DNA of 64,000 bases, taken from Pseudomonas sp. ADAK13. Its GTDB lineage: Bacteria; Pseudomonadota; Gammaproteobacteria; Pseudomonadales; Pseudomonadaceae. The notes under the pieces are model-generated. The model worked only from the letters and a program-made list of their open reading frames with translations, did not search any database and was not told the DNA's origin. Made by a program: the position numbers and the translations under genes. Numbering within the stretch: the stretch's first letter is position 1; each line of letters starts with the position of its first letter. Shown in pieces: positions 27,088 through 64,000 of this stretch. The stretch is from NCBI RefSeq assembly GCF_012935715.1, contig NZ_CP052860.1, positions 5,828,001 through 5,892,000 of the forward strand, in the 5' to 3' direction.

Positions 27088-27840
27088 ATGAAATTACAAG
27101 ACAAGGTTGCACTGATTACGGGTGCCGGTGCGGGTATTGGTGAAGCGACCGCCAAGCTGTTCGTGGCTGAGGGCGCCAAGGTTATCGTCGCCGATCGCAA
27201 CATCGAGCAAGCGCTGGCCGTAGCACAAGCGCTGGGCAGCCAGGCATTTGCGGTTCAGGCCGATGTTTCTGACGCGGCTCAGGTCAAGGCTATGGTTGAA
27301 AAGGCCGTGGCGCATTTCGGCGGCATCGACATCCTGGTGAATAACGCAGGTTTCGGTACGCTGGGAACTGTCGTCACGGTCGATGAGCAAACCTGGGACG
27401 AGGTCATCAACGTCAACCTGAAGGGTGTATTTCTGTGCTCAAAATACGCCATTCCTGAAATTATTCGACGCGGCGGCGGGGCGGTCGTGAACCTGGCATC
27501 TACTATTTCTGTGGTGGGTATCAAGGATCGCGCAGCTTACGTTGCTGCCAAAGGCGGTGTCGCAGCGCTGACGCGCGCAATGGCCCTTGACCATGCCCTT
27601 GAAGGCGTTCGTGTGAACAGTGTGGCGCCAGGCGTGATCGCTTCCAGCTATTACGACAAGATTTTCGAAACTGTTCCAGACCCGGTAGCGTTCAAAAAAG
27701 GGCTGGAAGCACGTTCGCCATTGAACAAAATGGGCGAGCCCATCGATATTGCCAACGTGATTTTGTTCCTGGCTTCTCAGGATTCCAGTTTTGCAACGGG
27801 CGCGATGTTCACTGTGGACGGTGGCTACACCGCCTGGTGA
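27088..27840 (+). CDS. SDR-family oxidoreductase
   Basis: This classical short-chain dehydrogenase of 250 residues has the cofactor motif LITGAGAGIGEATA (TGxxxGxG) and ILVNNAGFG. The catalytic Ser lies in VVNLASTISVVG and the Tyr-Lys pair in AAYVAAKGGVAAL. The C-terminal FATGAMFTVDGGYTAW is also typical. Asp in the second strand (VIVADRN) suggests NAD over NADP. It is the first gene of the operon controlled by the palindrome at 26991. A close but broken copy lies at 51980. The NIPSNAP-like gene follows after four bases. Confidence 0.88.
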   Translation: MKLQDKVALITGAGAGIGEATAKLFVAEGAKVIVADRNIEQALAVAQALGSQAFAVQADVSDAAQVKAMVEKAVAHFGGIDILVNNAGFGTLGTVVTVDEQTWDEVINVNLKGVFLCSKYAIPEIIRRGGGAVVNLASTISVVGIKDRAAYVAAKGGVAALTRAMALDHALEGVRVNSVAPGVIASSYYDKIFETVPDPVAFKKGLEARSPLNKMGEPIDIANVILFLASQDSSFATGAMFTVDGGYTAW

Positions 27841-51979: not shown

Positions 51980-52358
51980 ATGAAACTAAAAGATAAGGTT
52001 GTATTGATTACGGGTGCCGGCGCCGGTATCGGAGAGGGGACCGCGAGGTTGTTTGCCGAGCAGGGTGCCAAGGTGATCGTCGCGGATCGTTATATCGACC
52101 AGGCCAGGGCAGTGGCTGACGCCATTGGAGCTCAGGCGTTTGCGGTGCACTCAAGGGGTATTTCCATGCTCTAAGTACGTAGTGCCGCATGTCGTCAACC
52201 GCGCCGGTGGAGTGATCATCAATATCTCGTTTAACACCTCGGTAGTCGGTATCAGGATCGTGCAGCGCGTGTCGCCACCAATGGCGGCATCGCCGCATTA
52301 GCCAAAGCCATGGCGCTCGAACACGCAGCGATGCAGGATGTTCTGGTGCGAGTGTGGC
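51980..52358 (+). pseudogene. SDR oxidoreductase remnant, interrupted by the transposon
   Basis: The first ~55 codons (MKLKDKVVLITGAGAGIGEGTARLF..., with VIVADRYIDQARAVADAIGAQAFAV) match the intact SDR at 27088 very closely. The sequence then jumps over roughly 65 codons to a piece equivalent to LKGVFLCSKYAIPE and changes frame. It continues as fragments recognisable as GGVIINISFNTSVVGI and NGGIAALAKAMALEHA. Homology ends at about 52358 where AT-rich transposon sequence begins. The gene has therefore lost its middle, picked up frameshifts and lost its C-terminus. It was presumably the last gene of the 48850 operon, mirroring the SDR/transporter pairing at 27-35 kb. Confidence 0.8.
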
Positions 52359-52423
52359 TGTCAATCAATAATGATTTTCAATAATTATCAATAAAATCAA
52401 TAGTATAGATAATATCCCAATTT

Positions 52424-52468
52424 AAAAAGGATAAAAGCCCCAGATCTTTAGGGGGTTTTATCCTTTTT
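52424..52468. terminator. Strong hairpin inside the transposon left end
   Basis: AAAAAGGATAAAAGCCCC (52424-52441) pairs with GGGGGTTTTATCCTTTTT (52451-52468) with one mismatch and a 9-base loop. The stem has A and T runs on both sides, so it could stop transcription in either direction. It lies 200 bases upstream of tniA and would shield the transposase genes from outside promoters. Confidence 0.75.
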
Positions 52469-52670
52469 AACTTTTTCGAAAAGCCCAAAGATTCGTTATC
52501 TCGGCGTGTATCGGATACACGACTCTGATTTTTAAATACGACATTTTGAAAGAAAAAAAGCACTACGATTCAGAGTGTTATCGCATCAGCCTTCTGAGTT
52601 ATACATTCGCGTCAAAAAATATGAACGGTAGTGGTCTATATAGCTAATAGAAAACTATTGGACCCTATTC

Positions 52671-54470
52671 ATGTTTGTTGAGCTAAAAAAAGACTTGCAA
52701 GTAATAGCGCGCGGAAAAGGCTCGGTTATAACTTCTATCATTGACTCTAAAAATGTCCTGGTACGAGTTTCATCGACCGGTGAAACTGTGGCAGTAGGGG
52801 TCGATGAAATCGAATTTTTGATTGTGGCTGATCAGCAAAATATTGCTTGGTCGGCAACGGGTGGCTATGAAGTATCAGATGATGAATTTTACGAGGCCAA
52901 ACGCCGGCACGATATCCTCGTCAAGTTCAAAAATGGAGAGATTTCTCAAAAGCAAGCGGCGGTAGAAGTCGGTGTCAGCGTGAACCATATCTATAAGATT
53001 CTCGGAAACTTCGACGCTGCAAGAGGACCAATTACTTTAACAAGGAGAAATCGAGGAGTTAAAAAGGGTGAAGTGCGACTTAACCCGAAAATAGAAAAAG
53101 TTATCAGCGAAGCTATAGATGTGTACAAAAACAAAGAAGCTGTGCCGATTTCAAATATATGGAAAAGAGTTGAGGTGGTATGCAAGGAGAAAGGCTATAA
53201 GACGCCATCGAAGGCAACCGTTAGGCAGCGAGTTTATTCAAAGTTAACTTCCCTACAAGTCACATCTTTACGCAAAGGAAAAGAAGCCGCCAAGCAAAAA
53301 CATCATGCAAAACCAGGGTCTCAAGCCCTGAGTTTTCCATTAGAATCTGCTCAAATGGATCATACATTAGGTGACGTAGTACTTTTGGCAAATGACCGAA
53401 TCCATCCCATTGGCAGGCCATGGATAACACTTGTCGTCGATAGGTATACGCGCGTAGTTTTAGGTTATTATTTGAGCCTGCACGTTCCTAACTCAGTCTC
53501 GGTTGCTTCGGCCTTAACTCACGCGGTACTGCCAAAGTGGGAGTTTCTGGGGAGGCTGGGTTTAGACAAGTTTAGCTATCCGTTTTTCGGGGTGCCACAG
53601 TTACTCGGAATGGATAATGCTAAGGAATTCAAGAAACGTAGATTTCTATTGGATTTAGATAAAGTTCAGATGGGATACGAACATCGCCCTCCTGGCAGAA
53701 AACATTACGGTGGTCATGTAGAAAGAATGATTGGCACGTTTATGGGGAAGTTACACCTTTTGTCAGGAACAACAATGTCAAATACAGTTGCTCGTAAAAA
53801 TCTTAAATCTTCCGCGTTGCCTACGATGACATTCTCCGAATTTTGTCGATGGTTTGCCTTACAAGTATATGAATATCATAATACTGTTCATTCTGCGCTT
53901 GGTAAGTCACCAGCGGAGGCGTGGACGGAATATTTCGATCCGACAGGGATAACTCCTTATCCTCCATTTACTACTGATCCTCAACAGTTTAGATTGAATT
54001 TTATGCCTACTGAGGAAAGGGTGGTACAAACTAAGGGTATAGAGTTTAAGAATATGTTTTACTGGGATAATGTGCTTTCGCCACTGGTCGGCACAGGAAA
54101 GGCTATAATAAAATACGACCCCCTTTCAATGAAGCAAATATGGGTGAAGTTCCCAACGGGATATGTACCTATCCCATTCGCGGATATGAGTAACCCTGAT
54201 TACACATATGAAGAGTACCGTGCGGCCGCGTTTCACAGCGGTCGTAAGATACCAGGGGCCTTCACAACGCCAGAAGGACCAGTCGCTTATCGAGAGGCGG
54301 AGGCGATTGAGATTAAAAGCGTCAAGGAAACAAAAAGAGCGAGAAGGCAGGCTGCAGCACGAGAAGAGTACGAAAAAGAATTTTATCCCAGTAAGACAAC
54401 CGCCGAACCAAAAGATGTACCGGATTATTCACAACCCCCCAAAAAATTTGGTGTGAGTGATGAGCTATGA
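52671..54470 (+). CDS. tniA: TniA/TnsB-type DDE transposase
   Basis: This 599-residue transposase has an N-terminal helix-turn-helix (ISQKQAAVEVGVSVNHIYKIL, residues 91-111), a second DNA-binding region around 160-190, and an integrase catalytic core. The core has Asp230 (AQMDHTLGD), Asp315 (LLGMDNAKEF) and Glu351 (GGHVERMIGTF). The Mu-type C-terminal beta domain (FMPTEERVVQTKGIEFKNMFYW) follows. It cuts and joins the 3' ends of the element. Low GC and codon use differ sharply from the flanking genes. The tail is rich in Lys/Arg/Glu and probably contacts the AAA+ partner. The stop overlaps the tniB start by four bases. Confidence 0.9.
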   Translation: MFVELKKDLQVIARGKGSVITSIIDSKNVLVRVSSTGETVAVGVDEIEFLIVADQQNIAWSATGGYEVSDDEFYEAKRRHDILVKFKNGEISQKQAAVEVGVSVNHIYKILGNFDAARGPITLTRRNRGVKKGEVRLNPKIEKVISEAIDVYKNKEAVPISNIWKRVEVVCKEKGYKTPSKATVRQRVYSKLTSLQVTSLRKGKEAAKQKHHAKPGSQALSFPLESAQMDHTLGDVVLLANDRIHPIGRPWITLVVDRYTRVVLGYYLSLHVPNSVSVASALTHAVLPKWEFLGRLGLDKFSYPFFGVPQLLGMDNAKEFKKRRFLLDLDKVQMGYEHRPPGRKHYGGHVERMIGTFMGKLHLLSGTTMSNTVARKNLKSSALPTMTFSEFCRWFALQVYEYHNTVHSALGKSPAEAWTEYFDPTGITPYPPFTTDPQQFRLNFMPTEERVVQTKGIEFKNMFYWDNVLSPLVGTGKAIIKYDPLSMKQIWVKFPTGYVPIPFADMSNPDYTYEEYRAAAFHSGRKIPGAFTTPEGPVAYREAEAIEIKSVKETKRARRQAAAREEYEKEFYPSKTTAEPKDVPDYSQPPKKFGVSDEL

Positions 54471-55315
54471 GTGACTATCCTCGAGATTTACGAGAACTTA
54501 ATACTCAAGATAGAATCTTGCTAATAAATAAAGACGTCTGGGTTGACTATTCTCCAAGTGAGGAAATATTCAAAATAATGAACAATATTTCTCGCGTACC
54601 GAGACGTATTACAGCGCCCGCACTTATGGTTGCAGGAGTAGGAGGTGTAGGTAAGACGGCAATCATACGTCAAATACCTAAAAGAGTTGAGCGAAGTGAT
54701 GGCCTTCTATTTTTGGATATGGCGCTCGACCCAGAAAAACCTCATATTAAAAAGACATTTCACTCGGAATTGTGTAGGGCGTTAGAAATACCGATTGATG
54801 GGTCATCTAGGCCAAAGGAAGGGCGATTGGTTTCGCATGAACTTGCAGATATTTTAAAGCTAAGACAAATCTGGGGATTGGTTATCGATGAAATACATGA
54901 GCTATTGTTAGTAAAGAAAGATGAGCAACGAATCAACGGATCGATTCTCAAAACGTTGATCGGTGAGAAATACGCGCTGTGTTTATTTGGATTCGGTACT
55001 TTAGGTGCTACTACTGTACTAGGCGCAAAGCCTGAAACCAAACGACGGTTCACGGAGGTGTTGCTAAGTGACTGGAGAGAAACTGAAGAATTTAGATCGT
55101 TTCTACTTTCTATTGAAGAGAAGCTACCACTTAGGGAGCCCTCAAAGCTCTACGAAAAAAATATAGTACGGGTTATTTTGCAAAGCACCCACGGGCGTAT
55201 GGATAAAGTCATTGACCTGATACGCAGCGCCGGATGTTACGCGCTCAAGAATGGGAAGGAGCGCATAGATGTAGAATGCTTGAAGGCTGCAGCTGAAAAA
55301 CCTTGGTCTTACTAA
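54467..55315 (+). CDS. tniB: TniB/TnsC-type AAA+ ATPase
   Basis: This 282-residue ATPase has Walker A GVGGVGKT (residues 57-64) and Walker B GLVIDEIHELL (Asp141-Glu142), with a sensor region LFGFGTLGATTVLGAKPETKRRF. TnsC/TniB proteins bridge the target-selection protein and the transposase. It overlaps tniA by four bases and tniQ by one base (TAATG). Confidence 0.9.
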   Translation: MSDYPRDLRELNTQDRILLINKDVWVDYSPSEEIFKIMNNISRVPRRITAPALMVAGVGGVGKTAIIRQIPKRVERSDGLLFLDMALDPEKPHIKKTFHSELCRALEIPIDGSSRPKEGRLVSHELADILKLRQIWGLVIDEIHELLLVKKDEQRINGSILKTLIGEKYALCLFGFGTLGATTVLGAKPETKRRFTEVLLSDWRETEEFRSFLLSIEEKLPLREPSKLYEKNIVRVILQSTHGRMDKVIDLIRSAGCYALKNGKERIDVECLKAAAEKPWSY

Positions 55316-56346
55316 TGCGGTTTTCATGCGGCCTACCTGCACCATTTCATGATGAAACATTAACATCATGGCTCTACCGAATTTCTTTCAAAAGACGAAT
55401 AGTTGTGGGAGAGCGCGAACTGCTTCTAGCACGACCAAGGATAGCATGGGCGGGGGTTAATCCTATTGATGAAGATCTAGACTTTGATTTTTCGACTGTA
55501 TATTTCAAAAAAAACACTATTTCTTTGGCGTTAAATGAACAGGCAGTCAAGTGCTTTTTTAGCGCAAAAAATATTGCTATTGTTAATCCTGGCCGAAGAA
55601 CGCATTTTTGCTCTATTTGCTTGCGAGAGGACATTGTAAGGGGGCAAATGCCAGGCTGGCGTAAAAGCTGGTGCGCGAGGGATGCTGTGATTTGCGCTTT
55701 CCACGGAGTAGATCTATCAGTCTTAGGGGTAAATGCAACTTTCCGTAAGAGCTGGGATGCTTACATCCAAAGTGTGCAGCCTAATATAGCTCTCGATCCT
55801 TGGCTGAGCGTAAACTTTCAGAGGTTACGTAGAGATTTAATTCAGCGCATCAAACTTTGGCGCAAGCGTCAGAACAAACGCGCACGCAAACTGTTTTTCA
55901 ATCTTTACGACCTATTCCTTCTGGCGCCGACCTACAATCATGAGGCGGGTGTAGCACGTTTTCTTTTTGGCCGAAAACCTACGAGAAAATATAGTCAACT
56001 TATTACGTTTGAAGATGCAATCCTTCATGGCGCCGAATTAAGTGATATTAAAGCAAGATTTGGTGGTCAGGTGCTTGCGGCTTACGTTCTTGGTGGGATT
56101 CGAGAAAAGGAAATTTTGAAATTGCGGGCTAGTTGTATAAGGCATGGTATAGCGTTTCCCAAGATAGAAGAAATTATTCCAATGATACATTTCGGCTGCG
56201 CGACCTCAGCCGATTATGAATACTTGCATAGCCATTTAGGGAGGTTTACTCGAAAGGCGGGTAGTAAGCTTGATTGTCTCTTTGCGCGTTTTGAAAAAAA
56301 TATCGGATCACGCATTTTCCATAGTCAACTTCGGTTTGGTCGTTAG
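55315..56346 (+). CDS. tniQ: TniQ/TnsD-type target-selection protein
   Basis: This 343-residue protein has the TniQ N-terminus (MRFSCGLPAPFHDETLTSWLYRISFKRR) and a zinc-binding region: Cys99 and Cys102 in HFCSICLRED, Cys120 in WRKSWC, and Cys127/His130 in VICAFHGVDL. The C-terminal half has weak helix-turn-helix character (GGQVLAAYVLGGIREKEILKL). TniQ proteins choose or license the target site. The ATG at 55315 overlaps the tniB stop; upstream starts are not needed. At this length it is closer to Tn5053-type TniQ than to full TnsD. Confidence 0.85.
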   Translation: MRFSCGLPAPFHDETLTSWLYRISFKRRIVVGERELLLARPRIAWAGVNPIDEDLDFDFSTVYFKKNTISLALNEQAVKCFFSAKNIAIVNPGRRTHFCSICLREDIVRGQMPGWRKSWCARDAVICAFHGVDLSVLGVNATFRKSWDAYIQSVQPNIALDPWLSVNFQRLRRDLIQRIKLWRKRQNKRARKLFFNLYDLFLLAPTYNHEAGVARFLFGRKPTRKYSQLITFEDAILHGAELSDIKARFGGQVLAAYVLGGIREKEILKLRASCIRHGIAFPKIEEIIPMIHFGCATSADYEYLHSHLGRFTRKAGSKLDCLFARFEKNIGSRIFHSQLRFGR

Positions 56347-57252
56347 CTCTTTCGAATGGAATTGTTCTTTGATATGTCTCGTACAACGAGAACTTATGAC
56401 CTATGAAGTAGGCTACTGTGCCTTGGTGCGCACGTGCTAATTCAAGGACTACGGAGCGCTCAATTATCCATTGAGAGCTCAACCAGACGAATGACCCCGC
56501 CGGACATCCTGATTAAAATAGCATACACCATGAGATTTGAACGTGGGCGAGAGATTCCGTGCATCCTTAATTCCTTCCTCTTCGGATCAAGTAAAGGCGC
56601 TGACGTGTACAGTGTGTTCGCTGATATCGAACACGCTGTACGAATTCCTGTACTAAGGGCGACTTTATCCGTTTATTTAAAGGGAGCGCCATCAACGTTG
56701 TCACAAGGAGTCTGATGCATCAACAAAACATTAAAAAAACTATGTTAACGCCCAGGTCGTGCCTCGCATCGCTCAATGAGCTTAAGTTATTGAGAGACCT
56801 CCGCGAGGTGCTTCTCCAGAAAACTCAAGTTCGCAATATGTTTGTCTTGTATCTCCTGCGTTGCTCTGTCTAGGCATGGCAGCTTTTTTCTGGTCTCTCT
56901 GAATTGTTTGATTGACTTCAGCAAGTCATTTTACTTTTGAATCCTTTTCGCGGCGGCGAAGAACTGGCATTCCAGGAATGCGAATAGCATCGTAAATTCT
57001 TAAGACCTCACTGCTTGTCTTCGCCCTGGGCGCAAGTTGGACGATCAGTCGATCTCAATCAAGGGCATACACTACAATGCTTTTGCGAAAAAGCGCCGCT
57101 CACGATGCTCAACGCAGTTTGGGGTCGGTCTGGGCGGCGTCCAATCAACGACATACCCCAGCCGAGCGAAATCGTCGAGCGATGGTACATTTCACGGTGA
57201 TGGCATTTTGTCTCAGAGAAATGTACATTTCGCATCTTGCAAGGAGAGCACT
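56347..57252. other. Gap between transposition genes and cargo
   Basis: No convincing gene is seen in these ~900 bases. A GTG-initiated open frame at 56434-56715 has no ribosome-binding site and no recognised domain. Several hairpins occur: GAGCGCTCAAT (56454) with ATTGAGAGCTC (56470), then CTCAAT...ATTGAG and ACCTCCGCGAGGT around 56774-56815. The composition shifts here from AT-rich to the GC-richer cargo. The region may carry the cargo promoter, a small RNA, or only debris of earlier insertions. Confidence 0.5.
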
Positions 57253-58167
57253 GTGGCAGAACCCATCACCTATACCTTACCGCTAGCGTTCTATTATGAA
57301 AGCAAGCTGCCCGTCCCAATTGACGAAATCGTAAAATCTCTTCTCGCCCTCGAAAAGCTCGCGGCCAAAGTGCCACTGCTACTCGGGGAGCTCAGTGGAA
57401 CCTCGATTGATCTGCATTCCCTGAAAGTGGAAAAAATCGAATCTGGGAGTCTGAAAGAGCTTCTTGAAATGTCCATTTCCTTTCTGTCGGAAGAGGACAA
57501 GGTGAAGTTTAAGGCCTGGCTGAAGGGGACAAAGATGGGGCAAGCGACGAAGGTTGCAGCAGTGGGAGGCTTAGCCTCACTGGCCGTTTTGCTAATCGCC
57601 AGTCAAGCGATCACTGCTTACGACACCTTTACCAAAACCGACACCCCGAGCATCCAGGCAAACCATAACGTCATCATCAACATAGGTGCTGATGCTACCG
57701 GCGTGTCGCCTGAGCGTCTGAAAAAAGCCATCGATGCCTCCATGACGGGTGACAAGAAAAAAGTGGTGGCTGCCGCTTTAAACTTCGTAAGTCCGGCGGC
57801 GGGTGAGGATGGCGGACGTCTATACATCGGGCAGGATAAGAGCTCCGACGTGTCCTTCTCCCACGAGGCCGCGACCGATGCTCCGGCACAAGCCGATTTC
57901 CGCATTCGGGACGTCGATCATCTCTATGAGAGAGTGGCGGTTGAGATCAAGGTCCTTGATCGCGATAAAACCGATCGCGGCTGGAAGGCGATTCTTCCGA
58001 CGGTTGCTTCGGAAAAGCGGCTACCACTTTATTTCGGTGAGGGCGTCGTCCCTGGTAAAGCTGCGACCGAGGAAACAGTCATGGCGGATGTCATCGTCAC
58101 ATACGCTCAAGACTTTAATAAAGGCGTGATGATTCCCAAGGCGATCCTGGTTAAGCGGATCTATTGA
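57253..58167 (+). CDS. Unknown cargo protein with one membrane segment
   Basis: This 304-residue protein is not recognised. The GTG start at 57253 has AAGGAG 7 bases upstream and is preferred to an ATG at 57037, whose extension looks like random sequence. Residues 1-95 form a soluble domain of alternating strand and helix (YTLPLAFYYESKLPVPIDEIV, then IDLHSLKVEKIESGSLKELLEM). One hydrophobic helix spans about 101-122 (VAAVGGLASLAVLLIASQAI). The C-terminal ~180 residues are soluble, with ADFRIRDVDHLYERVAVEIKVLD and GWKAILPTVASEKRLPLYF. Its place between the tni operon and the Druantia genes makes a defence-related or accessory role possible, by position only. Confidence 0.6.
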   Translation: MAEPITYTLPLAFYYESKLPVPIDEIVKSLLALEKLAAKVPLLLGELSGTSIDLHSLKVEKIESGSLKELLEMSISFLSEEDKVKFKAWLKGTKMGQATKVAAVGGLASLAVLLIASQAITAYDTFTKTDTPSIQANHNVIINIGADATGVSPERLKKAIDASMTGDKKKVVAAALNFVSPAAGEDGGRLYIGQDKSSDVSFSHEAATDAPAQADFRIRDVDHLYERVAVEIKVLDRDKTDRGWKAILPTVASEKRLPLYFGEGVVPGKAATEETVMADVIVTYAQDFNKGVMIPKAILVKRIY

Positions 58168-58807
58168 TCGACCAAACTGAGCATCGGTACGCCCAATGAG
58201 TGAGGGCGTCCTGGACAGATCGCCACTTAAATGCCCCAAGGCGTGATCTTGGCGAGCGCATGTTGTGACTCAAAATCTCTTGATTCCCCGACTTCCGCAG
58301 GAAGTGATCGCCGACAGACATTCGTGATGGACATTCGGTCCGCTTCGCGCGCCACCGTCTGGTAGGTGCGGGTGGCGGTCGTATGAGAGGAATCAAGGTC
58401 GTCCGCGTGGCGTCCTTCCCAGTGTGGACGTCGCAGCAGCGTGTGTTCGCTGCCAGATTTTTCAGCGACGACGTGCTGAGTTGGATCAGGGCATTAGAGC
58501 TCAGCTTGTCTGGGCACGTGCTGACTGTCAGTGCAGTGCGTTGCCTTTATTTTATAAGTGTTGAGGATGGATGTACCATCTACTCTCTGCGCTGACGGCT
58601 GGACTCACAAGCTGTTGGAGTTCGCCAAACGGAAGCTGGGATGGGGTATCCGTTGACCCCTTTTGCTGAAGTCTGGCGCGACGCGAACACCGTCCGAATA
58701 ATCGATTGGGTGGCCGATCCGATTCTAATCAAGCCTCCCATGCGTGTAACGCAGAAGCTGTCGGCTAGTTAGGCGCCATTGGATTACTACTGAGCAGGAA
58801 GCGACAC
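58168..58807. other. Gap with a possible transposase scrap
   Basis: No intact gene is seen in these 640 bases. Around 58600-58665 one frame reads ADGWTHKLLEFAKRKLGWGIR before a stop. This recalls the ADG(G)Y...GW region of IS5/IS4-group transposases, but it is far too short to assign. The Druantia promoter presumably lies near the end of this gap. Confidence 0.4.
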
Positions 58808-60037
58808 ATGCCAAAAGGCGACGCGATCATTATTGGCGTTAACCTCCGAGAAGCGAACCTCAAGCGAAAGTTACGCGAGCACTTACATTCTTTGGGGTTC
58901 ACTAAAACAGATGAGGGTGCGCTGCGTCCGCCGGGAAATGGCAAGGAGGCAATCCGCACTCTGCATAGTGCGCAACGTGAAGAGCGTCTTATCGCCAGCG
59001 AAAGCTTTGTTCTCAGGGCGGGCGCAAAACTGATGCATCATTTTGCATCAGGATCTGAGGTTAAACCGGAAAAAATTTCACCCGTGCTGGAGCGCGTGTC
59101 TTCCAGTACTTGGCAAAGCGACTTATTCCGATTGGCTGCGCTATCCTGGTCAGTGCCGGTGTCCAATGGCTTTGGGCGCCGCCTACGTTATCTGGTTTGG
59201 GACCAAAGCAACGGAAAACTGATGGGGATTATCGCTATCGGTGATCCTGTATTCAACCTTGGGGTGCGAGACAAGTTTATCGGTTGGAACTCCCATGACC
59301 GCGGCGCCAGACTGGTTAATATTATGGATGCTTATGTGCTAGGAGCGATCCCGCCTTATAACTCACTGCTTGGCGGCAAATTGGTTGCCTGTCTGCTTCG
59401 TAGTCGTGATCTGTACGATGATTTTGCCGCGACCTATGGCGCCTCTAGGGGCATTATCTCTCAGCAGGAAAAGAAGGCGCGTTTACTGGCGATCATAACG
59501 ACCTCGTCGATGGGACGCTCTTCGGTCTATAACAGGTTGAAGCTACACGGCACGGAGTATCTCAAATCGATAGGCTATACCGGTGGTTGGGGACATTTTC
59601 ATATCCCAGACTGGCTCTTCACCGAACTGCGGGACTATCTGCGCTATAAGGATCACACCTATGCCGATCAGCACGCTTTCGGGCAGGGCCCCAACTGGCG
59701 GTTGCGCACCACTCGAGCAGCGCTGACCGCTCTCGGCTTCAAAGATGATCTGATGCGCCATGGCATCCAACGCGAAGTCTTTATCTCTCAACTCGCATCC
59801 AATGCGACCAAAATCTTGCAGAGCGGAAAAGGGAAGCCCGACGTGAGCTCTCTGCAATCCGTTAACCAGATCGCTGATATGGCGCTTGAGCGATGGTTAC
59901 TGCCCCGTGCTATCCACATGCCGAATTTCAAATATTGGAAATCGAGCGACCTGATTGATTTGTTTGGCAATCAAGCCCAGTTACTCCGAGCACAAGTGGA
60001 GCAGGAGCAGTTGCTCGACGCAACCCAACGGAATTAG
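58808..60037 (+). CDS. druA: Druantia anti-phage protein DruA (DUF4338)
   Basis: This 409-residue protein carries the DUF4338 pattern: LVWDQSNGKLMGIIAIGDPVFNLGVRDKFIGWN, then LVNIMDAYVLGAIPPYNSLLGGKLVACLLRS. The C-terminal segment has YADQHAFGQGPNWRLRTTRAALTALG and HGIQREVFISQLASNATKIL. In type I Druantia systems this is the first gene, followed by druB-druC-druD-druE. The biochemical role of DruA is not established. The ATG follows GAGCAGGAAGCG. The following gene starts 24 bases on, so an operon is likely. Confidence 0.82.
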   Translation: MPKGDAIIIGVNLREANLKRKLREHLHSLGFTKTDEGALRPPGNGKEAIRTLHSAQREERLIASESFVLRAGAKLMHHFASGSEVKPEKISPVLERVSSSTWQSDLFRLAALSWSVPVSNGFGRRLRYLVWDQSNGKLMGIIAIGDPVFNLGVRDKFIGWNSHDRGARLVNIMDAYVLGAIPPYNSLLGGKLVACLLRSRDLYDDFAATYGASRGIISQQEKKARLLAIITTSSMGRSSVYNRLKLHGTEYLKSIGYTGGWGHFHIPDWLFTELRDYLRYKDHTYADQHAFGQGPNWRLRTTRAALTALGFKDDLMRHGIQREVFISQLASNATKILQSGKGKPDVSSLQSVNQIADMALERWLLPRAIHMPNFKYWKSSDLIDLFGNQAQLLRAQVEQEQLLDATQRN

Positions 60038-60061
60038 GGACGCAAGGGGAAGGGGAAGGCG

Positions 60062-61729
60062 ATGGACTATGCCATTAACAGAGTGACAAACAAAATCGAG
60101 TCGGCTGAAAAGGCATTTGGCGGAGGATTTTACGTCTGTCCTATTTGCCGGGCGAGAGTGAGCCACTGCGCAGGACTCAAACGTAGAAAATATTTTGCAC
60201 ACTATCCCGGCACCGGCACATTTGAATGTGAAAACTTTACTCTAGGCCAGTATGAGCAGGGCGCTTCCAATGGCGCGCTTGCTGGTCTAACCAAGCGGCG
60301 CATGGACCTGCGATTAAAAATCGAAAGAGGGCAAAATCGGGCTGCGTGGTATCTAGAGTTGACCCTGCCTTCCTGTCGTGCGTGCAACGCCACGCTCACT
60401 GTTGATGTGGGGGGACGGTTACAGAACATCAATATGCGCGGTATGGCTACTGGCTTTCGGATCATGGCCGAACTCTCCACGGATGACTTTCGGATAGTGT
60501 CCTTTGACGGTGCTCCGGACCGTTTTTTCGTCGAAGGCGTGGAGCGTGAATGCCGCGGACTTCCATCATTGGGGGCGGCTGTGTTCACGGCTTCGGGGCG
60601 CGGTGGCACGATTGGATTCCCGAGAGCGCACGAACTGCGAGGGGCAGAGACCTACGCTGTTTTGTGGAAAGAACCCGAGTTTCCGGGCTTCCCCAATGAG
60701 CTTGTCCCCGATAGGTTTCAAAGTCGGCAAGGTTGGTCGCTTGCTCTAATCACTGTTCCTGAAGCGCCCTCTCAAGAATGCATTGAATGGCTCCAGGCTT
60801 TCACGGGCTTGATGGTCAATCCCTCTGTACCAAGCATCTCAACCGTCTGGCCGTTTCTTGCGAGAAACGCCAGTGTAAATGCCGTTGAGTGTACCGATTC
60901 TAGTTCGATAGTCTTGGCCGCCAATATGATGCCGGTAGGTCCGGGGGATGCAGGGCCAAACATGCTGGTGTTTGGTGGTGAAAGCCGAATAGCTGCAATG
61001 GGGCTTGAACGATCACCTGCTTTGTTTGCTTTGGCACCGGGTGGACAAACGCATTTCCGAGTCGCTAAGTCCGAGCGCTCTGAAAGCGAAAAACTCTTTT
61101 CCCGGACACTCACAGTTAGGCCGGTATCGGACCTACCTGGACTGGAGATGGCATTTACTACTGCGGAAGGAGTGCACTTAGTCGTACCCTTCGGCACTTC
61201 AAAGTGTAAAGCGCTTGTGGAGTCAGTCAGGCAGCAGCGGACGACACTCGAGTACCTGGCGATGCCTCCCGGCATCTCTGGCCAGCTACATGCCGAAAGT
61301 CGGTCAACGCCGGTCACCCTTCGATTGGCGTCAGGCAATACTGCCGCTCCCCATTGTGCCCATCAGCGGCTCCTGCCCCCCGCTATACAGACCGCGGTCA
61401 TTGATTTTTTAAGCGACTCGTCATCACCTGTCGATCTTGAGTTCGGAGGGTTCGGCCGGCTGCGTTTGGCGGGCACTCCGTTGATGCCGGCAGTCAGTAA
61501 GGCTCATTTAGTCTTGGATCACCTCATCCGGACAAGGCTGCGCAGTTTCCTTTTCCAAATGCACGTAGGGTCAACGGCTGGGCGTTTTGCGAACGATTCG
61601 ACATTGGTTCGAGCATTTTGCGCAAGCAGGCCTCCGCAGAGACTTATACCGAACTATCGCGCTCTGGCGAGCGAACTCCGCGCCAGCGGATTTGACATCA
61701 AACATTCAGCAGGAGGTGTCTCGTTATGA
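60062..61729 (+). CDS. druB: Probable Druantia protein DruB
   Basis: This 555-residue protein begins with a zinc-binding segment: Cys26 and Cys29 in FYVCPICRARVSHC, His47 in RRKYFAHYPG, and Cys56 in TFECENF. The spacing recalls the N-terminal domain of CoiA-like competence proteins. The remaining ~480 residues, rich in beta strands, have no recognised family. The call as DruB rests on position between DruA and a long coiled-coil protein in the expected order. The start follows AGGGGAAGGGGAAGG. Its stop overlaps the next start (ATGA-type, 61726-61729), indicating coupled translation. Confidence 0.62.
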   Translation: MDYAINRVTNKIESAEKAFGGGFYVCPICRARVSHCAGLKRRKYFAHYPGTGTFECENFTLGQYEQGASNGALAGLTKRRMDLRLKIERGQNRAAWYLELTLPSCRACNATLTVDVGGRLQNINMRGMATGFRIMAELSTDDFRIVSFDGAPDRFFVEGVERECRGLPSLGAAVFTASGRGGTIGFPRAHELRGAETYAVLWKEPEFPGFPNELVPDRFQSRQGWSLALITVPEAPSQECIEWLQAFTGLMVNPSVPSISTVWPFLARNASVNAVECTDSSSIVLAANMMPVGPGDAGPNMLVFGGESRIAAMGLERSPALFALAPGGQTHFRVAKSERSESEKLFSRTLTVRPVSDLPGLEMAFTTAEGVHLVVPFGTSKCKALVESVRQQRTTLEYLAMPPGISGQLHAESRSTPVTLRLASGNTAAPHCAHQRLLPPAIQTAVIDFLSDSSSPVDLEFGGFGRLRLAGTPLMPAVSKAHLVLDHLIRTRLRSFLFQMHVGSTAGRFANDSTLVRAFCASRPPQRLIPNYRALASELRASGFDIKHSAGGVSL

Positions 61730-63618
61730 GTTACCAGTATGGCCAGGAGGCAAGAGAGCGTATCTCTGCATTCGGACAACATAAAATTGCCGAGTTCATT
61801 GAGGAGGTCCCTCATGATTACCGCAAGGCTTACTGCGACCGCCAACCGGCCATCTCCGGCTTCCGCAGAGGCTCACCGCCTGAATTCAAGGAGAAACAAA
61901 GGCGCCTTATCGGTCACATTGTGCAGCCCCAAGGTGGCCAGAAAGGCGACGCAGACTGGAAAACATTTGCAAACTTCTGGGTGGCTTGGGCTAAACATAG
62001 GCTGGGCGTTGAATTTCCCGCTGGCGATCGAACTGTTCCCGAGGATGACGCAGGACCGATGTTCCTGGAAACGATAGCGGGTAAGTTTCCCGACGTTCCT
62101 CGAGAGGTTGTGGAGCGATTGATCGCGTTCAGTTGCTTTTCCGACCATTCGGATACGCAAGCGGCACTGGAAAAATTTCGCCCGGCATCGACCCTTGCTC
62201 GTGATCGAATGATTGACGGATTGCCAGGACGTTTGGACAAGATTGAAGGTTACTTCGAGATCGCCGAAACGGCAGCCGAGGAGGTCGCCGGGCAATTTGA
62301 GTTACTTGAGTCCAAAGTGTCAGCGCTAATCGACTCTGTGGACGATGTTAAAACACGGGTGCAGTGCTCGGCTAGCGAGGCTGCTGACCTGCGATCTGCT
62401 TTAGATAAGGCAAACCAACGAACGGAGCAGTTCATTAAGACCGCTCAGGCGCTTGATGAGGGGGGGCGAAACATTAGTGAAGCTCTGACTGCATCGGAAA
62501 AAAAGGCGGATCTGGTTAGACAAAATGTGAATGCGCTTGCTGATAGGGCGCAAGATTGGGATGAGACCTCGGCACAAGCTACCGAGCTCAAAAAACTGGT
62601 GGAACAGATTAAGTCACAGGCACCGGACTGGATCAAAACTGCCGAGACGGTAAGTGCACTCTCCGATCGGATTGAAGAGTTACACGCCAATCTGGACAAA
62701 CTGGGCAGCGGGGCGGGGCACCGGCCACCGCAGTATCGACTGTTTGAGCTTGAAGCCCTAGGGCCTCTTGTCGAGATACATTCTGTCGAAAACGCACGAG
62801 AGCTTATCTCATGCAACCTTCAAGCATGTGGGATCGTAAAAGGGGCTGCGATATCTGTTGCTCGGCTGATCCTGGCTGGGCTCGCTGCCGGTCAGTTGGT
62901 CCAATTCTCAGGGTCCCTTGCCGACTTCATGGCGGATGCAGTCGCAGCAGCGATAGGCGGCCCGACATTTCACGAGTGGCGGGTCCCCGTCGGCCTCCTA
63001 TCAGAAGAGGCCGCGAGCGACTGCCTTGAGGCGGTTGCCGACCATTCAGGCTGCTTAGTTCTAAAAGGTGCGAACCGATCTGCGTTTGAAATTTATGGCA
63101 ACGCAATCCGAGACATTGTCACCCGTCGCCAGTTAGCCGTTGCCACCCATCACAAACTGGCTCTGATCTGTTCGTGGGCAGAGGGCCCCGCCGCATTTCC
63201 CGACGGTGGCACCTTGGCCGAGCTCGGCCCAGTTTTTGACACCGATAGCCTGCCGCTACGGGGCGTGTCGTCGAGAGTACCGAGCTTAAGATATGGCCAC
63301 CTGTCGAGGGGCTCGTGGCAGCTTATTGAGGGTTTTGATGATGAGACGCCGAGCACCCTCATCACCGACTGGAGAGAGTTGCTCGCCGAGTCGGGGTTTC
63401 GCCCAGGCAATCTTTGGACACGCAGTGCAGATCGAGCGTATCTGCAACTCAGGGCAACGCCGGGTGGAAACGAAGATGGGGATTTACACGCGATGCTGAC
63501 GTACTGGGCCTGTCCTTGGGCGAGGGCGTCTGGTGGCCCGTTTGAAGCGGTCGCTACTATTGCGGAACGGATTCTGGCTCAGCAACAAGCAGAGTCTTCG
63601 CATTTTGAGGGGGCGTAA
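61726..63618 (+). CDS. druC: Probable Druantia protein DruC, coiled-coil
   Basis: This 630-residue protein has a globular N-terminus (to ~165) and then a long helical, probably coiled-coil region (~170-335). The latter shows heptad-like stretches such as VAGQFELLESKVSALIDSVDDV and LVRQNVNALADRAQDWDE. A globular C-terminal domain follows. It starts four bases before the DruB stop. No catalytic motif is seen. The order DruA, DruB, long coiled-coil protein and further gene agrees with type I Druantia, which is the basis of the name. It may serve as a scaffold for the helicase-like DruE expected downstream. Confidence 0.6.
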   Translation: MSYQYGQEARERISAFGQHKIAEFIEEVPHDYRKAYCDRQPAISGFRRGSPPEFKEKQRRLIGHIVQPQGGQKGDADWKTFANFWVAWAKHRLGVEFPAGDRTVPEDDAGPMFLETIAGKFPDVPREVVERLIAFSCFSDHSDTQAALEKFRPASTLARDRMIDGLPGRLDKIEGYFEIAETAAEEVAGQFELLESKVSALIDSVDDVKTRVQCSASEAADLRSALDKANQRTEQFIKTAQALDEGGRNISEALTASEKKADLVRQNVNALADRAQDWDETSAQATELKKLVEQIKSQAPDWIKTAETVSALSDRIEELHANLDKLGSGAGHRPPQYRLFELEALGPLVEIHSVENARELISCNLQACGIVKGAAISVARLILAGLAAGQLVQFSGSLADFMADAVAAAIGGPTFHEWRVPVGLLSEEAASDCLEAVADHSGCLVLKGANRSAFEIYGNAIRDIVTRRQLAVATHHKLALICSWAEGPAAFPDGGTLAELGPVFDTDSLPLRGVSSRVPSLRYGHLSRGSWQLIEGFDDETPSTLITDWRELLAESGFRPGNLWTRSADRAYLQLRATPGGNEDGDLHAMLTYWACPWARASGGPFEAVATIAERILAQQQAESSHFEGA

Positions 63619-64000
63619 ATGAGGTGGCAGGCGGTCTCTGGAGATGAGGCTAAGAGGACCATCGCTGCTGGAATTGGCTGCAAAGTACGTGGTGAAGGGC
63701 TGCGTATCTCGGCGATCTCAGAGTGCTTGAGGGCTGCGTCCTATTTGTGCTCAGTACCGTTAACAAAGGATGGTCCTTGGGAGCCTGCCGTATCGCTCAG
63801 CTTGACTAGCCTCGTGCGCAAACGGCTGTCGCCGATTTGGGACAGCCTTGGCGAAGATGCCGATGCCCGACCAGGCGTGCTGAGTATTTTGGAGAGCCTT
63901 GGAGAGCTCGGAGACTTGGTCAGGGCCGAGCGTGGCTGGTTAACTCCGCGGCCCCAAGCGATCAGTGCCGATTGTGGTAACGCAGTGATCCTAGGTGGCG
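63619..64000 (+). CDS. druD: Probable Druantia protein DruD, N-terminal part
   Basis: An ATG directly after the DruC stop (TAAATG) opens a frame that stays open for 127 codons to the window edge. It begins MRWQAVSGDEAKRTIAAGIGC, with VLSILESLGELGDLVRAERGWLTPRP further on, which looks like a winged-helix-type segment. No known domain is identified. By position it should be DruD, with the large helicase gene druE beyond it. The gene is truncated by the window, not by mutation. Confidence 0.55.
   Translation, partial: MRWQAVSGDEAKRTIAAGIGCKVRGEGLRISAISECLRAASYLCSVPLTKDGPWEPAVSLSLTSLVRKRLSPIWDSLGEDADARPGVLSILESLGELGDLVRAERGWLTPRPQAISADCGNAVILGG

Follow-up and report, generated by a model that had tools for sequence, protein, structure and literature searches.

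Type I Druantia, which reportedly goes back to Doron et al. 2018, consists of five genes, druA to druE, in a fixed order and one direction. The Tn7-like transposons of the TniABQ kind form the clade of Tn5053 and Tn6022, and Table 1 of Benler et al. 2021 lists defence systems in Tn7-like cargo; in the main text of that paper the word Druantia does not occur (PMC8649781). In the open PubMed Central literature, Druantia was found together with Tn7, TniQ or Tn7-like cargo only in a work on Escherichia coli defence islands, the available part of which places Druantia at a type I restriction-modification (R-M) locus with a transposable element at its flank (PMC10121019), and nothing was found there for Druantia together with tniA and transposon. 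Two papers on defence islands of Pseudomonas (PMC12629846, PMC10250203) may be relevant to the carriers of Druantia. Here we describe a Druantia locus from Pseudomonas sp. ADAK13. The window, i.e. the whole stretch of 64,000 nucleotides that was analysed, covers bases 5828001–5892000 of the 7.30-Mb single-contig genome, and its rightward extension in the same chromosome is the stretch L003, in which L003:653 equals window-equivalent position 64653. Quite probably, the five genes druA-B-C-D-E at window-equivalent 58808–70208 form a complete type I Druantia operon within a mosaic accessory region, and an intact TniABQ module (Tn7-like, no tnsA seen), whose left end most likely lies at 52353, has this operon on its cargo side.

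All five Dru proteins match the PADLOC type I models near full length, and the number of genes, their order and their direction agree with type I Druantia. DruE belongs to the type I branch, as the score with the DruE1 model (2314.6 bits) compares with 642.7 bits for the best DruE2 model. It contains DEAD, Helicase_C and MZB (MrfA Zn-binding) domains as well as the motifs Walker A, DEAH and QRAGRAGRRG. The five genes follow each other in one direction with a spacing of 24 bp, a 4-bp overlap, 0 bp and a 1-bp overlap; together with their start and stop codons, this spacing supports an operon. For the 127 amino acids (aa) of druD inside the window, the DruD1 model gave an E-value of 1.8e-58. The operon is complete and looks intact. 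An earlier note on this DNA had named DruA to DruD in type I order and predicted druE to the right, within 10 kb. The identities are borne out by the PADLOC models, that of DruA also by Pfam PF14236, the order is borne out with tight spacing, and druE was found just past the window. Weak SMC/Rad50 matches of DruC residues 153–326 suggest a central coiled coil. Solved structures related to DruE are 9tu7, 9wae and 6znp; none related to DruA was found at E <= 0.01, and DruC had no match in viral contigs. The operon is an ordinary additional example of a known system and differs only in its neighbourhood, a phage accessory gene and a TniABQ module being next to it.

According to their translations, tniA, tniB and tniQ are intact and in order. 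Asp230, Asp315 and Glu351 of TniA are invariant across six aligned TniA proteins, and TniB carries both Walker motifs (GVGGVGKT and VIDEIH). The Pfam matches at 52671–56346 confirm the tniA-tniB-tniQ genes that had been claimed upstream of Druantia. We infer that this TniA falls into the Tn5053/Tn6022 clade. In comparison with TniABQ-kind Tn7-like transposons (PMC8649781, available part), the order of tniA, tniB and tniQ, the presumed TGTG start of the left end and the defence genes on the cargo side agree, whereas here no tniR-sized gene by tniQ, no downstream tyrosine recombinase and no right end was found. Between tniQ and 57037 there is no open reading frame (ORF) above 93 aa, which is too short for a tniR serine resolvase. 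Hence, the label Tn5053-like, used earlier, does not hold in the strict sense.

TniA was detected at E <= 1e-100 in 16 of 398 genus genomes, our own included, and ten of the 15 others were retrieved with long flanks. The nearest other TniA among the 398 genomes is 52% identical (G219, L068:2493–4292), a copy that may be dead because it contains one internal stop. A contig scan with TniA gave nine loci with 30–40% identity, and eight of nine named contigs are from Pseudomonas; a scan of viral contigs with the TniA alignment gave one distant match (L143). For tyrosine recombinases 21 other loci were surveyed, from which L129 (no TniA match) and four loci with only 0.6–3.5 kb downstream were dropped, leaving 16 with at least 8 kb. 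A tyrosine recombinase of more than 100 bits is located downstream of the tni genes in ten of these 16; in the remaining six it is weak (L069, L118), upstream of tniA (L086) or not found (L070, L071, L084). Downstream of tniABQ in our locus there is none in 47.7 kb, and the best match to it anywhere in the genome is 33% identical and located at 6.17 Mb. This absence is weak evidence, since the six closest of the 16 are split into two with a strong match, two with a weak one and two with none.

A left end of the TniABQ element at 52353 is probable from the comparison with related elements. The elements in L071 and L118 are near-identical inward of TGTGATGCC and unlike outside, so that their left ends were set at this position; L072 starts alike. 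In L069, L070 and the window a TGTG was chosen by eye, 318–392 bp ahead of tniA by one count and 207–392 bp by another, and the upstream stretches of L068, L074 and L077 were compared too, with no start chosen for them. The homology to a short-chain dehydrogenase (SDR) gene breaks off 26 bp ahead of 52353. The 3' part of the intact SDR gene, used to look for the remainder of the interrupted one, matched nothing but itself below E 0.45 in the window and the next 40 kb, and there was no match in the 51 kb searched to the right. Directly before 52353 stands GCGAG, a candidate for a 5-bp target-site duplication. Further inward, the inverted pair at 52419–52473 is possibly a pair of transposase-binding sites, or a terminator.

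Searches for the opposite end gave no convincing counterpart. Ungapped inverted 22-mers yielded none up to 84 kb, and gapped local alignment reached a best score of 34, a value that a shuffled control also reached. Left-end motifs with mismatches occurred to the right 0 times against 0.4 expected and 8 times against 8.85 expected, and the 19-base pattern of the site at 52419–52473 has no other occurrence in the genome with fewer than three mismatches. A maximal-segment search over 20 kb gave a best value of 12, compared with 0 and 12 in the block-shuffled controls. Of 14 relatives put through the same search, L069, L070, L082 and L118 each had a single short match that exceeded both controls, and the other ten had none; no match formed an array, and those of L070, L071 and L118, when read, are unlike ends. 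Because the same method revealed no convincing right end in the 14 relatives, the failure has low power and carries little weight. Exact CACA plus GCGAG was absent from 51.6 kb rightward and, likewise, from five relatives. With the left flank as query, an empty site was sought in 59 genomes, where 11 gave matches that beyond our own locus extend over only 23–170 bp, and in 288 genomes at E <= 1e-60, where only our own locus was found. With the right flank none was found in 59 and 95 genomes. One genus relative, G044, has a 2.8-kb block of the right flank in common, starting at about 72.8 kb, without the left flank; further right, 0.2–0.8 kb of a recombinase gene is common to several genomes.

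The earlier note had interpreted the locus as a type I Druantia inside a TniABQ element. The type I assignment stands, ordered and, after extension, complete; carriage by the element is possible, no right end having been located in the searched stretches. As true cargo, Druantia would have been moved in one step within an element that begins at 52353 and has its right end behind druE (70208) but before the core-like genes at about 72.8 kb, a reading that is credible without being probable. The intact tni genes suggest that a right end exists at some point beyond tniQ, Druantia stands where cargo would be expected, and behind it begins the first block in common with G044. Moreover, many defence systems have been recorded as cargo of Tn7-like elements (PMC8649781, available part), and in the genome G067 a TniABQ module is found at a dTMP (deoxythymidine monophosphate) kinase-like gene, relatives of which lie upstream of Druantia in G371 (1.3 kb) and G259 (12 kb). 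This reading has to contend with the missing right end, target duplication and empty site, with the debris directly after tniQ, with the lack of the tyrosine recombinase of ten of 16 relatives, and with none of five other Druantia loci showing a tniABQ match in 18–20 kb.

Alternatively, TniABQ and Druantia may have arrived in separate events: the element would have lost its right half, had it replaced or end before druA, and Druantia would have entered the same variable region by another route; we regard this as a credible possibility, short of a probable one. The guanine-plus-cytosine content per 300-bp step differs between the two blocks (0.39–0.48 in tniABQ, 0.49–0.60 in Druantia, about 0.55–0.67 at 72.7–76.6 kb). 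They are separated by a phage accessory gene and by the 3' piece of a gene for an SMC-like ATPase, and behind druE follow an IS66-like fragment and unknown genes. Other type I loci lie in other settings, namely ICE-like (resembling an integrative and conjugative element) in G348, next to triple integrases in G046 and G371, next to an R-M-like gene in G042 and on the plasmid pKF715A. However, a half element that died long ago would hardly have kept its tni genes intact, transposon cargo is equally expected to be mosaic, and G371 has distant tniB and tniQ relatives 9 kb beyond its druE.

Several points also weigh against the overall reading of a Druantia operon on the cargo side of a TniABQ module. 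No right end was found in rightward stretches of 20–52 kb, or with one site pattern genome-wide, and consequently it is gene order that places Druantia on the cargo side. The left end at 52353 is set by a short motif, weak by itself, together with the break in the SDR gene. Finally, the phage-defence function is predicted from the genes that the operon contains.

DruC was found at E <= 1e-40 in seven of the 398 genus genomes, our own included. Five of the six other loci were retrieved at 18–20 kb, followed by nine further flanking stretches. In all five, druA to druE stand in the same order, and tniABQ gave no match at E <= 1e-5 within 18–20 kb. Distant relatives of tniB (21%) and tniQ (24%) lie about 9 kb beyond druE in G371, behind three genes read as integrases from their translations, and in the other loci there were none at the same threshold; Druantia and some TniABQ module thus meet twice. 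Also from translations, the surroundings of Druantia in G348 look ICE-like, in G046 triple integrases lie upstream, and G042 has a type I R-M-like gene. On the Pseudomonas putida plasmid pKF715A, Druantia lies behind an IS66 element. What appear from translations to be multi-integrase (GInt-like) modules lie by type I Druantia in two genomes (L065:3–4792 and L129:250–5319). In the sixth of the other genomes, druC is split over both ends of one contig of 139,806 bases (G161:C2; L061:19–1005 and L062:1501–2466), which points to a circular replicon cut open and a possible plasmid-borne Druantia.

In G371, the dTMP-kinase-like gene ahead of Druantia shares 78% DNA identity over 585 bases with the gene in G067, where the left end of a related TniABQ element abuts its 3' end. 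A third copy (73% at the protein level) is the one upstream of Druantia in G259; around the Druantia operon of the window the gene is absent. These three loci only give hints that its 3' end serves as a shared integration site. The combined proposal, in which a complete type I Druantia travels as cargo of a TniABQ transposon that lacks tnsA, a cargo type missing from the table of Benler et al. 2021 (PMC8649781, available part), and such elements share with Druantia a hotspot at the 3' end of the dTMP-kinase-like gene in Pseudomonas, appears unlikely as a whole.

Gene debris separates tniQ from druA; longer relatives of the SMC-like remnant are present in several genus genomes. The remnant is followed by a gene for a 304-aa protein, 640 bp ahead of druA, of which residues 2–303 align to positions 2–298 of 300 in the phrog_4506 profile, i.e. 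to the whole profile. What had been taken for an additional membrane protein where the cargo begins turned out to belong to a phage accessory family. From residue 32 on, the protein had no match to PADLOC models, and it was not matched in the five other type I Druantia loci or, at E <= 1e-30, in 297 other genus genomes. Its 27 database relatives are all merely annotated as hypothetical, with Pseudomonas or Ectopseudomonas as named hosts. Although the gene stands between tniQ and druA and shares their orientation, it is very improbable that its product is a further component of Druantia or of the transposon, given its absence from those loci and genomes, its membership in a phage family and the gap before druA.

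Genes of the phrog_4506 type occur in 15 of 50,697 phage records and four of 72,556 plasmid records, among them lambda-like E. coli phages and Pseudomonas phages; the 11 matches in E. coli phages, each at 28% identity, do not count as independent. In six of the seven annotated places that were read, the gene follows a repressor (CI-, S24-, LexA-like or annotated in another way) at a distance of one to three genes, and in the seventh it stands some genes before a terminase. Loci of the family are L115, L116, L124, L125, L126 and L127; the repressor-adjoining ones belong to temperate phages or prophage-like records and show a rex-like position. Relatives with 81–84% identity were found in two viral contigs, a short one (L141) and L142, where the relative lies ahead of genes read as terminase. 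These locations, mostly by a repressor in temperate phages, indicate a temperate-phage accessory gene. A role in superinfection exclusion is a candidate function of the family that we infer; no mention of phrog_4506 was found in the open PubMed Central literature. In contrast to its phage relatives, the full-length gene described here lies outside any recognised prophage. The predicted structure of the protein is poor, with a mean pLDDT (predicted local distance difference test) of 56 and a pTM (predicted template modelling score) of 0.35. On the other side of the operon, the IS66-like fragment behind druE has matches in many genus genomes.

For type III Druantia, DruE has been described as a helicase-nuclease effector with DruH as the likely sensor, and DruE is the only part common to all Druantia types (PMC13192584, available part). 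In types I and II the C-terminal Vsr nuclease of DruE is predicted to be inactivated (PMC12458937, available part). In the operon of the window DruE would be an ATP-driven helicase core that engages and unwinds phage DNA during infection, while DruA to DruD would be the partners particular to this subtype, sensing the trigger and giving DruE its licence to act. With its nuclease predicted to be inactive in type I, the DNA-damaging step probably needs another subunit or host nucleases; DruB, with its weak CoiA-like N-terminus, is a candidate.

Table 1. Features of the Druantia locus and of related loci (window or window-equivalent positions unless a stretch is named).
Feature	Position	Strand	Basis
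Decayed SDR gene, internal gap	51980–52327	+	tblastn with intact SDR of 27088–27840: residues 1–170, 39%, E 2.5e-23
Proposed TniABQ left end, starts TGTGGCTGTC	52353–52670	+	318 bp upstream of tniA; left ends of relatives
Inverted pair of 23-nt site	52419–52473	.	repeat search
tniA, DDE transposase, 599 aa	52671–54470	+	Pfam Mu-transpos_C 1.4e-11
tniB, AAA+ ATPase, 282 aa	54467–55315	+	Pfam TniB 1.3e-19
tniQ, 347 aa from TTG or 343 aa from ATG	55303–56346	+	Pfam TniQ 2.3e-8
3' remnant of SMC-like ATPase gene (name by reading)	56760–57025	-	tblastx to genes in L099, L101–L110, L112, 37–56%
phrog_4506 protein, 304 aa, one hydrophobic stretch, GTG start	57253–58167	+	phrog_4506 E 1e-48
druA (DUF4338)	58808–60037	+	PADLOC DruA1 716 bits, E 3.3e-216; Pfam PF14236 276 bits
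druB	60062–61729	+	PADLOC DruB1 794 bits, E 1.3e-239; weak CoiA_N PF25164, 26.7 bits (cut-off 26.3)
druC	61726–63618	+	PADLOC DruC1 895 bits, E 8.7e-270
druD	63619–64653 (beyond window, to L003:653)	+	PADLOC DruD1 494.1 bits, residues 1–343 of 344 aa
druE, 1851 aa	64653–70208 (L003:653–6208)	+	PADLOC DruE1 2314.6 bits
Unknown ORF, 367 aa	L003:6418–7521	-	16 uncharacterised homologues
IS66-like fragment	L003:7608–7789		matches inside annotated IS66 tnpB of pKF715A
Unknown protein, 194 aa	L003:7986–8570	-	part match to phrog_18838
dTMP-kinase-like genes	L066:5807–6433, L069:17299–17919, L135:5447–6052		sequence comparison

Mechanistic work exists for type III Druantia (PMC13192584, available part), and none was found for type I in the literature searched. 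The phrog_4506 family beside Druantia offers a further lead, which can be tested on its own, towards a gene for superinfection exclusion. If a TniABQ element with Druantia inside were mapped, Druantia would join the defence systems that are moved by targeted transposons.

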